Shown in pieces: positions 3,341 to 27,533 of a stretch of 37,689 bases of DNA (position 1 is its first letter; the number at the start of each line of letters is the position of its first letter). This DNA comes from Desulfurococcales archaeon. GTDB lineage: Archaea > Thermoproteota > Thermoprotei_A > Sulfolobales > Acidilobaceae. The notes beneath the pieces were generated by a model, which saw nothing but the letters and a program-made list of their open reading frames with translations, made no database searches and was not told where the DNA came from. A program made the position numbers and the translations under genes. The stretch is from contig WAKG01000015.1 in NCBI GenBank assembly GCA_015523445.1, positions 1 through 37,689 of the forward strand, in the 5' to 3' direction.

Positions 3341-3414
3341 GCCGGGGTAGCTCAGCTAGGTAGAGCGCCGGGCTGTTAACCCGGTGGTCGGGGGTTCAAG
3401 TCCCCTCCCCGGCG
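3341..3414 (+). tRNA. trnN: tRNA-Asn (GTT); CCA encoded at 3415-3417
   Basis: GCCGGGG/CCCCGGC acceptor, GCCGGGCTGTTAACCCGGT anticodon arm, GGGGGTTCAAGTCCCCT T arm, G73. Confidence 0.95.
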
Positions 3415-3579
3415 CCAGAAACCATGATACAGATATCCAAAACAATCAGAATCAATCAAATACTCAACCACCACCTAGCCTCATTCCTCACTCGAATCCC
3501 CAATCAGTAAATACTATTACTATATGCCACTGACTGCATAGAAGCGTATATCAAGAATAGTACCAAGGGGTTAGGTATT

Positions 3580-3909
3580 ATGCCTAGAGGAGACCTCCCA
3601 CTAGTCCTTATAGCCAGATTCTATGGGAGTAGTAGAGGTTGCTTCAAGGCAGGTGATACCCTAAGAGGTTTAGACGCCAATTACTCAACATACTATCGTA
3701 AGTTGGAAGATCGAGTTATGTATGTGAGGGTGTTGTTGGGGGTCTATCATTCCTGGATGCCTGAGAACGTTAGGAGGGCTATAGTGGAGGCTATAGATAG
3801 CGCTGAGGCTGTGAAGGCCTCCCTGGCGAGGGAGGTGGACCCTGTCCTAAGGAGCCTGGCCAACAGGTCCCAGGCTGGCCTGGAGGCCAGGGTGTTAGAG
3901 AAGGCCTGA
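3580..3909 (+). CDS. Hypothetical protein (109 aa)
   Basis: ORF with plausible composition; no family recognised. Confidence 0.45.
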   Translation: MPRGDLPLVLIARFYGSSRGCFKAGDTLRGLDANYSTYYRKLEDRVMYVRVLLGVYHSWMPENVRRAIVEAIDSAEAVKASLAREVDPVLRSLANRSQAGLEARVLEKA

Positions 3910-3995
3910 ATCGCTCCAGCCCAAGTTTTCCCCCTAACACCCTGGGTGTAGTGTTTCCCTCTTCTTTAGGCTGAGGTGTGCTGGGATTGTGTGTT

Positions 3996-4067
3996 GGGGC
4001 GGCGGGTGTGATGATCGAGGCACGAGCTGACCTGTGATGTACGCTCGCTGCGCTGACCCGCCGCCCC
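3996..4067 (+). ncRNA. Box C/D guide sRNA
   Basis: Box C GTGATGA (4008-4014), 12-nt guide TCGAGGCACGAG, D' CTGA (4027-4030), C' GTGATGT (4034-4040), 12-nt guide ACGCTCGCTGCG, D CTGA (4053-4056); perfect 11-bp terminal stem GGGGCGGCGGG/CCCGCCGCCCC (3996-4006/4057-4067). Confidence 0.92.
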
Positions 4068-4283
4068 CTGTATACTCTGTGTGCTTAGGCCCAATAAGCC
4101 CTACGCTCTGCTTAGCCCCGCATTAGAATAGTTAGATCTCGTAGGCAGTAAACGCTAAAACAAATTCTTCATAGCCTCCAATACTCAGCTTGATGAGCCC
4201 TCTAGGGGGCGGAGAGGCTCTATGAGGTCTCCCTGGAGAGTGTATGATTCGTTTTATAAGCATGGAAGTCAATATTGTATGAC

Positions 4284-4355
4284 GGCCGAGGCGGGTGGCT
4301 ATGATCCTTCCCGGCTCTCCGGGGTAAGCTTGCCCGTCGGATGAGTGCTACTCTC
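4284..4355 (+). ncRNA. Structured repeat element E (divergent copy of a five-copy putative ncRNA family)
   Basis: GGCCGAGGCGGG...CCCGTCGGATGAGTGCTAC; arms CCGA-gg-CGGG (4286-4295)/CCCGTCGG (4333-4340), TGGC (4296-4299)/GCTA (4347-4350), extra hairpin CCCGG-CTCT-CCGGG (4310-4323). Confidence 0.6.
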
Positions 4356-4397
4356 TCTGTAATCTTTAAATTCTAAACGGGGTCTAAAGTGAATTGG

Positions 4398-4460
4398 GTG
4401 GAGGCCCCGGGACTGCGGGGGTGTACCGGGGTCCCGGATGACGCATCCCCCGCATACTCT
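4398..4460 (+). ncRNA. Structured repeat element A (putative pseudoknotted ncRNA)
   Basis: Arms CCGGGAC (4407-4413)/GTCCCGG (4431-4437) interleaved with GCGGGGG (4415-4421)/CCCCCGC (4447-4453); shared CCCGGATGA. Confidence 0.7.
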
Positions 4461-4526
4461 ATGTCTACCCATACCCCCCAGCGGCCACAGTTAAACATTA
4501 ATGTTGCATCGTAAACCGGCAATACT

Positions 4527-4590
4527 TGCCGAGTCCCGGGCGGGTAGCGGGGGCACCCCCGGGCCCCGGATGAGGCATCCCCGCACCCTC
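4527..4590 (+). ncRNA. Structured repeat element B (putative pseudoknotted ncRNA)
   Basis: TGCCGAG...CCCCGGATGAGGCATCCCCGC; arms CCGGG (4536-4540)/CCCGG (4565-4569) interleaved with GCGGGG (4547-4552)/CCCCGC (4579-4584). Confidence 0.7.
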
Positions 4591-4654
4591 TACCCGCCAA
4601 TTCCATATTCAACATAGCGGTCCTCTACAGTATCCTATCCTAAGGGTATTACTC

Positions 4655-4728
4655 TTCCAGGGGAGGGCACGGACTCATCCGGCCTGGGATATAGCGGCCC
4701 TCCCCCAAGGAGTTTCCCAGGCCTCGCC
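4655..4728 (-). ncRNA. Structured repeat element C (putative pseudoknotted ncRNA)
   Basis: Minus strand GGCGAGGCCTGGGA...TCCCAGGCCGGATGAG...GCCCTCCCC; arms at + coordinates 4715-4723/4681-4689 (9 bp) and 4697-4705/4660-4668 (9 bp), interleaved. Confidence 0.72.
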
Positions 4729-4752
4729 ATGTGGTTATTTTTAAGCTGAATG

Positions 4753-4775
4753 ATTATAATAAATTTTATTATAAT
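4753..4775. repeat. A/T-only perfect inverted repeat ATTATAATAAA-T-TTTATTATAAT
   Basis: 11-bp arms with 1-nt centre, between elements D and C. Confidence 0.9.
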
Positions 4776-4837
4776 AGATGTGGGGGACGCACTCATCCGG
4801 TACCCGGGTACCCCCCACGCCTCCCCGGGCCTCGGCA
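4776..4837 (-). ncRNA. Structured repeat element D (putative pseudoknotted ncRNA)
   Basis: Minus strand TGCCGAGGCCCGGGG...GTACCCGGGTACCGGATGAGTGCGTCCCCCAC; arms CCCGGG (4824-4829)/(4803-4808) and GTGGGGG/CCCCCAC (4812-4818/4780-4786). Confidence 0.7.
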
Positions 4838-4989
4838 TTTATAAGTAATATGATGATAGTATCCTTTTAAATGTAATTGGTCTGTGTTGTGAAGCTTTGC
4901 TAAGGGTATTAATATTTTTAGTTGGGGATGGGTTTAGAATTAAGGGTTGCGGTAGCTAGTTGATCAATGGGTGATGGGGTGCGAAGGGT

Positions 4990-5727
4990 TTGACTTTGAT
5001 GACTAGGCTATTGTTCCAGGAGGATAGTTATCTGAGGGAGTTTGAGGCTACCGTGTCTAGGATTGAGAGGGACATAGTGTTTCTGGATAGGACGGCATTC
5101 CATCCAACACCCTATGGTGGTCTTGATACTGATACGGGTGTGTTGGAGTCGGGCCGGGGCAGGGCTAGAGTGCTGGAGGCTAGGGTTGTGGGGGATGAGG
5201 TTGGCCATGTGGTAGATGATCCTAGCGTATTCGCTGTGGGGGATCGGGTCAGGGGTGTGATAGACTGGGATAGGAGGTACAGTATGATGAAGCTCCACAC
5301 GGCTAGCCACATACTGGCCTCGGTGTTGTACGAGAGGCATGGTGCAATGGTTACGGGTGGGCATATAACATGGGAGTATGCTAGGGACGACTTCAGCATA
5401 GAGTCGAGCGGGTGGAAGAGGATCATAGAGGATGCGGTGGAGGAGACTAACAGGATAATAGCCAGGTGCCTGGAGGTCAGGGTGTACTGGCTGCCCAGGA
5501 GGGAGGCCCTCAAGATACCTGGCCTCGTGAAGCTTGCAGACAAGATGCCGCCCGAGGTTGAGAGGGTTAGGATAGTGGAGATACCCGGGGTTGATATACA
5601 GGCCGATGGGGGGCCGCATGTGAGGAACACCTGCGAGATCGGCGGGATCAGGATATTCAAGTTCGAGAGCAAGGGGAGGAGGCGGAGGAGGGTCTACTAC
5701 ACCCTAGCCCAGCCCCGGCCAGGGTAG
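4990..5727 (+). CDS. alaX: Alanyl-tRNA editing protein (AlaX family); TTG start, or ATG at 4999
   Basis: HTASHIL (HxxxH) and GGPHVRNTCEIGGI motifs of the AlaRS editing/AlaX domain. Confidence 0.88.
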   Translation: MTLMTRLLFQEDSYLREFEATVSRIERDIVFLDRTAFHPTPYGGLDTDTGVLESGRGRARVLEARVVGDEVGHVVDDPSVFAVGDRVRGVIDWDRRYSMMKLHTASHILASVLYERHGAMVTGGHITWEYARDDFSIESSGWKRIIEDAVEETNRIIARCLEVRVYWLPRREALKIPGLVKLADKMPPEVERVRIVEIPGVDIQADGGPHVRNTCEIGGIRIFKFESKGRRRRRVYYTLAQPRPG

Positions 5728-27429: not shown

Positions 27430-27533
27430 GGGCCGGTAGCTCAGCCAGGCAGAGCGGCGGGCTTTTAACCCGTAGGCCTGCAGTGCGCTGGCCTGTAGGG
27501 CGGAAGTCCCGGGTTCAAATCCCGGCCGGCCCG
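27430..27533 (+). tRNA. trnK: tRNA-Lys (TTT) with ~30-nt insertion/intron in variable region; CCA encoded at 27534-27536
   Basis: GGGCCGG/CCGGCCC acceptor, GCGGG-CTTTTAA-CCCGT anticodon arm (anticodon 27464-27466), 35 nt (27474-27508) before T arm CCGGG-TTCAAAT-CCCGG. Confidence 0.88.

Follow-up and report, generated by a model that had tools for sequence, protein, structure and literature searches.

Putative small RNA genes with a kink-turn-like core and a loop-tail pseudoknot: a multicopy family in Acidilobaceae-type archaea

One intergenic region of an archaeal contig carries five short elements on both strands, and it raises the question of whether these are genes for a structured small RNA, copies of a spreading repeat, regulatory leaders or guide RNAs of a familiar class. 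An earlier note, made from the letters alone, had proposed a new multicopy RNA family. In this study, the whole stretch of DNA that was analysed (37,689 nucleotides, hereafter the window) and related genomes were searched for further copies, focusing on their structure, distribution, promoters and genomic setting.

Copies in the window and in related genomes

Because MAFFT alone put the apical stem P1 out of register, the alignment was made by hand, with N as padding, and a covariance model (R1) was built from 10 copies with 15 nested pairs. Copies A, B and D were included in the training set, C and E were left out, and the window was scored with filters off. The five copies, with their basal stems, P1 and the loop-tail helix P2, are as follows.

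4283..4357, + strand: copy E; core GCCGAGG / TCGGATGA; P1 GGCGGG/CCCGTC; conserved TGATCCTTCCCGG within a long loop; weak P2; R1 14.4 bits (E 0.42)
4396..4453, + strand: copy A; basal stem GTG/CGC; P1 CCCCGG/CCGGGG; P2 GCGGGGG/CCCCCGC; R1 43.9 bits (training sequence); copy in G003, 94% over 66 nt
4526..4585, + strand: copy B; basal stem GCC/GGC; P1 CCCGGG/CCCGGG; P2 GCGGGG/CCCCGC; R1 44.0 bits (training sequence); copy in G012, 97% over 58 nt
4660..4730, - strand: copy C; basal stem GGC/GCC; P1 GGCCTGGGA/TCCCAGGCC; P2 GGGGAGGGC/GCCCTCCCC; R1 33.5 bits (E 4e-5; outside the training set); pseudoknot complementarity reached in 0 of 300 shuffles
4780..4838, - strand: copy D; basal stem ATGC/GCGT with a bulged T; P1 GG-CCCGGG/CCCGGG-TA-CC; P2 GTGGGGG/CCCCCAC; R1 56.9 bits (E 5e-10; training sequence); relatives in G003 and at the G050-series loci L050, L051, L055 and L056

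The strands agree with those given by the earlier note, and the 5' SGAG and 3' YCGGATGA motifs that it described are common to all five copies. Its further statement that the interior sequences differ is true in part; it misses P1 and the 5' strand of P2, which lie within the interior, the P2 partner being placed directly 3' of GGATGA. The covariance-model check that it had named recovered C, although this copy had been left out of training; A to D span 33-57 bits, and the best score in the 37.7 kb window after the five copies was 9.6 bits. Copy E is weak by itself and its P2 alone is not significant; it is a probable member, the case for which rests on a clear relative in another genus (G012, L064 7944-8012, 81% over 69 nt). 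A sixth copy was found in the genome of the window itself (contig C114:2565-2623). A loose motif pattern run over that whole genome returned 932 matches and was uninformative.

A total of about 25 copies were assigned to the family, distributed over 9-10 genomes with 1-6 copies per genome. Matches to R1 were present in 9 of the 48 genomes of the taxonomic family, among which the genome of the window (G000) had five, including that on C114, in addition to E, G020 and G057 had four each, G056 three, G003 two, and G010, G012, G049 and G058 one each; two more copies were recognized in G012 by inspection. The matching contigs bear the public names of Acidilobaceae archaeon, Thermodiscus sp. and Desulfurococcales archaeon MAGs. 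Copies in different genera are 91-97% identical within unrelated flanks. Most genomes of the family lack copies, so the element is not essential; one of those without copies is G002, which belongs to the same genus and is 99% complete. Outside the family, R1 detected no copies in a 197-genome sample of the order or a 151-genome sample of the phylum, a search in which diverged A+T-rich relatives could be missed since the model is G+C-rich and the filters were strict. Searches of phage and plasmid DNA returned nothing related, two scans of viral contigs followed by R1 yielded no members (best 20.9 bits), and a DNA pattern scan of genome contigs gave matches of at most 20 bits in other phyla. Weak R1 matches in G015, G002, G011 and G058 lacked the core motif and were set aside, as were a tRNA-like sequence at L012 and a match without the motif at L010. 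A 23S rRNA was found only in G015.

Kink-turn-like core, stems and pseudoknot

All copies share an internal loop with the 5' strand N-GA-G and the 3' strand C-GGAU-GA-N. Positions 1n, 2n, -1n, -1b, L1, L4 and 1b are invariant over 25 copies, and 2b is A in 24 of them. In U4 snRNA and box C/D RNAs, the kink-turn consists of a CC-GA-GG strand and an (A/G)AU-GA-G strand around tandem G.A pairs, with a bulge of 3 nt. The core studied here (CGAG / CGGAUGA) would likewise have tandem sheared G.A pairs, a bulge on the 3' strand and two flanking helices, which makes it kink-turn-like; however, its bulge is 4 nt (GGAU), so that L7Ae binding is not assured, and the guide arrangement of C/D RNAs is absent. 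The basal stem changes in a paired manner: 16 copies have C-G and five have G-C at 3n-3b, and a neighbouring pair is GC, UA, AU or CG. P1 differs by type (CCTGGGA/TCCCAGG in C, CCCGAGGG/CCCTCGGG in L056). Some copies look decayed, such as L063 (GGATGT) and L009. At L009 630-701 (G009), an E-type relative retains the TGATCCTTCCCGG loop and has lost the G.A pairs of the core; it may be either a decayed copy or a variant without the kink-turn.

The apical loop contains a G-rich strand complementary to the 3' tail (GCGGGGC/GCCCCGC in L056b, GGCGAGC/GCTCGCC in L064b). Compensatory changes support P2, the helix between this loop and the bases that directly follow the core, and with it an H-type pseudoknot, a feature missed by the earlier note. 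Summed over 14 copies, loop-tail complementarity reached 290, against a shuffle mean of 192 and a maximum of 227.5; individually it was not significant in E, B, L052, L064a and L064b. In a 20-copy alignment of the whole structure, 13 pairs were altered on both sides versus 7.7 in shuffles, and the covariation score was 0.289 versus 0.105 in shuffles and at most 0.063 when partners were slid. Part of the P2 covariation in this alignment came from differences in helix length, and P2 was therefore recounted with its outer end anchored so that shifts in register could not create artefacts. In this count, pairing holds in 110 of 111 cells, and position 2 is occupied by five standard pair types. Covariation is present in the basal stem, P1 and P2. 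Nested folding of single sequences was no better than that of shuffles and made P1 and P2 exclusive, an outcome that fits a pseudoknot and leaves a switch between P1 and P2 open.

Promoters and a variable island beside a tRNA gene

Clear TATA-like boxes precede three of the copies in the window, E, A and D, while those of B and C are weaker.

4253..4260, + strand: TATA-like box TTTATAAG, 30 nt upstream of E
4364..4371, + strand: TATA-like box CTTTAAAT, 32 nt upstream of A
4864..4871, - strand: TATA-like box TTTAAAAG, 33 nt upstream of D

Over the family, the A+T content of upstream columns -31 to -24 was 0.815 versus a circular-shift null of 0.696 +/- 0.021, with none of 5000 shifts as high, and the best TATA-like octamer started at -40 to -28 in 15 of 23 cases (4.7 expected). 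The peak at about -30 would be the expected position of an archaeal TATA box for an RNA starting at the 5' end of the element. Since this peak recurs about 30 bp upstream within flanks that are mostly unrelated, the promoters appear to be independent and the copies look like small RNA genes; a TATA promoter of its own for each copy thus has computational support. Homology between genomes mostly ends at the borders of the element of about 60 nt. An extra stable hairpin follows the element in about 10 of 24 copies (z below -2), so that some of the RNAs may be longer. A strong separate hairpin stands directly after P2 at L050, L051, L053, L054, L055, L056 and L057 and is common to L051b and L054; a 3' domain or a terminator is possible.

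All five copies in the window lie between a tRNA gene and an alaX-like gene.

3341..3417, + strand: tRNA-Asn(GTT), left border of the island
3418..4993, no strand assigned: strain-variable island between tRNA-Asn and the alaX-like gene, holding all five copies; unrelated DNA in G002

G002, the closest relative with a good assembly, matches the window up to the 3' end of tRNA-Asn and resumes at the alaX-like gene (96% identical protein). The DNA between these two points is unrelated, and the genome as a whole has no convincing copy. The five copies therefore belong to a variable stretch that follows a tRNA gene on its 3' side. Among 17 sites, 6 follow a tRNA gene at a distance of at most 1.1 kb on its 3' side, against about 0.6 for a uniform spread (an optimistic comparison because of intergenic bias), and none is as near on the 5' side. 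Directly 3' of tRNA-Asn, the window shares related sequence with the DNA that follows tRNA-Thr in G003 (74% over 201 nt). Related DNA was observed directly 3' of tRNA-Asn or tRNA-Thr genes in different genomes (window 3418-3632, L062 4652-4851 and L064 5456-5601), with an antisense frame that runs into the tRNA as in captured integrase fragments, and an integrase remnant beside these tRNA genes is suspected. No integrase and no common gene were found when the ORFs of the island were compared with Pfam and PHROGs, nor was a repeat of the tRNA-Asn 3' end found at the far end of the island.

Several other features were recorded in the surroundings. CRISPR-like repeat arrays with repeated peptides such as LQFYAIDS adjoin two copies (L054 6120-7875 and L059 4033-4996). 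A good-looking box C/D sRNA candidate at 4004-4058 (+) of the window reaches no Rfam gathering score (its best match, sR9, gives 29.9 bits versus 36) and is partly conserved in G010 (L122 1704-1752, 82%). The tRNA at 27430-27533 has an Rfam match and no ARAGORN match, the tRNA-Cys at 2723-2817 was assigned the unusual anticodon ACA, and both may contain introns.

The main rival to an RNA gene family, which we consider unlikely, is a selfish element: a very short repeat, or a parasitic gene for a small RNA, that is carried along by mobile DNA without serving the host. It would account for the position of the copies in a variable island, for the tRNA-proximal sites, for the patchy copy number and the decayed look of some copies, and for the finding that the same copy types occupy non-matching sites in different genomes. 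However, no terminal repeats, target duplications or linked transposase were seen, the promoters vary in sequence and keep their position, and selection on an RNA is indicated both by compensatory changes in two helices and by the 91-97% identity that copies from different genera retain amid unrelated flanks.

Interpretation and comparison with known RNAs

We favour, with a probability of roughly 0.6, a new family of stand-alone small RNA genes in some Acidilobaceae-type hyperthermophilic archaea, which would have their own TATA promoters and encode a kink-turn pseudoknot RNA acting in trans. The reading of the earlier note as a multicopy family of structured small RNA genes is largely borne out by relatives conserved mostly over the element, covariation in all three helices and the TATA-like peak, and its suggestion of novelty by Rfam: covariance models of Rfam 15 at gathering score identified only tRNAs in the window and eight related loci, and nothing relevant was found over 3400-5000 up to E 10, the C/D matches there being confined to the candidate at 4004-4058.

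Each copy would give an RNA of about 60-75 nt with a basal stem of 3-4 bp, the kink-turn-like internal loop (GA opposite GGAU-GA) and an apical P1 of 6-9 bp, whose loop would pair with the 3' tail as P2 (6-9 bp). L7Ae would bind the kink-turn and fold the basal stem back along P1, bringing the 3' tail to the loop and locking the pseudoknot into a compact, heat-stable RNP. Because almost every base would be paired, action in trans as a structural or protein-binding RNA is most likely, rather than as a base-pairing guide. The copies would be gained and lost fast and gather in variable islands, notably 3' of tRNA genes. More tentatively, and with rather less than even confidence, these RNAs may constitute an undescribed class of archaeal small RNP, in which several diverged copies of a kink-turn-driven pseudoknot RNA on variable islands act in trans as protein decoys, RNP scaffolds or guides for an unidentified effector. 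The L7Ae-type RNAs known from archaea are rRNA, RNase P and SRP RNAs, guides for RNA modification and a small number of mRNA leaders. A pseudoknot RNA family with multiple copies and its own promoters, absent from Rfam and turning over rapidly where mobile DNA is found, would give L7Ae a candidate substrate of a new kind. It would also offer a compact system in which to test how pseudoknot folding depends on a kink-turn when temperatures are high, and it draws attention to genes that standard annotation passes over.

Other functional readings were considered. The copies could be stand-alone omega-RNA-like guides of a TnpB-type or unidentified effector, with the pseudoknot as scaffold and the variable sequence 3' of P2 as guide, although this seems very unlikely. 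Scaffolds with a pseudoknot beside the guide are known in the TnpB class of enzymes. Beyond P2, copies of a single type have no related sequence, and L7Ae-binding archaeal RNAs at transposase 3' ends have been described (PMC3124441). Against this, TnpB (PF07282) was not found in G000, G057 and G058, all of which carry copies (for G000, 90% complete, the absence is not final), the TnpB-rich genomes G013, G041 and G051 lack the element, and no copy stands beside a recognised tnpB among the neighbours checked.

The exclusive P1 and P2 of nested folding, and the same-strand gene that follows several copies, might indicate a conformational switch working in cis as a riboswitch, attenuator or terminator. 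We give this little credence: copies E, A and B point towards C and D instead of leading into alaX, neighbouring genes differ everywhere and are unrelated, with mixed orientations and no conserved leader position, L055 and L063 face convergent genes, and the loop lengths would permit P1 and P2 together. This lack of a shared neighbour gene pointing to cis-regulation agrees with the preference of the earlier note for an RNA family over an attenuator or terminator.

The shared kink-turn, the similar size and the real-looking C/D sRNA 230 bp away might point to guide RNAs of the box C/D or box H/ACA(-like) kind that escaped recognition, but this is hardly credible. In the H/ACA pattern (PMC4652768), a kink-turn or kink-loop is located over a pseudouridylation pocket, with the canonical stem by the pocket and an ANA box 14-16 nt from the pair that closes it. 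This pattern is contradicted by a kink-turn that faces the wrong way (canonical stem apical and non-canonical stem basal in all copies) and by the lack of both a pocket and an ANA box at that distance; the sequence after P2 is variable, its first base being A in 16 of 24. The C/D pattern, with boxes C (RUGAUGA) and D (CUGA) close to the termini, D'/C' between them and a guide of roughly 10 nt, is contradicted by the order CGA then CGGAUGA around a stem, with no outer C and D boxes enclosing a guide and no Rfam match.

For the preferred reading of stand-alone small RNA genes, three described systems offer comparison. In the SAM-I riboswitch (PMC4316175), a kink-turn also bends a helix, whose loop can then pair elsewhere in a pseudoknot, but this is a multi-helix cis aptamer, and it shares no sequence or Rfam match with the element. 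The H/ACA-like sRNAs of Pyrobaculum (PMC4652768) are likewise short crenarchaeal single hairpins with an embedded kink-turn, which is apical and in the opposite orientation and is accompanied by guide strands and an ACA box, whereas the element has a predicted pseudoknot and no pocket. Among described RNAs, sRkB, sRkC, sRk48 and sRk52 of Pyrococcus abyssi (PMC3124441) come nearest to the element. These belong to a different phylum, are about 130-340 nt long with several stems and are related to the 3' ends of transposase genes, and a loop-tail pseudoknot like P2 is not reported for them (PMC3124441); like the element, they are archaeal RNAs that occur in several intergenic copies, and they contain kink-turn or kink-loop motifs for which L7Ae binding has been shown; some have promoters of their own (PMC3124441).
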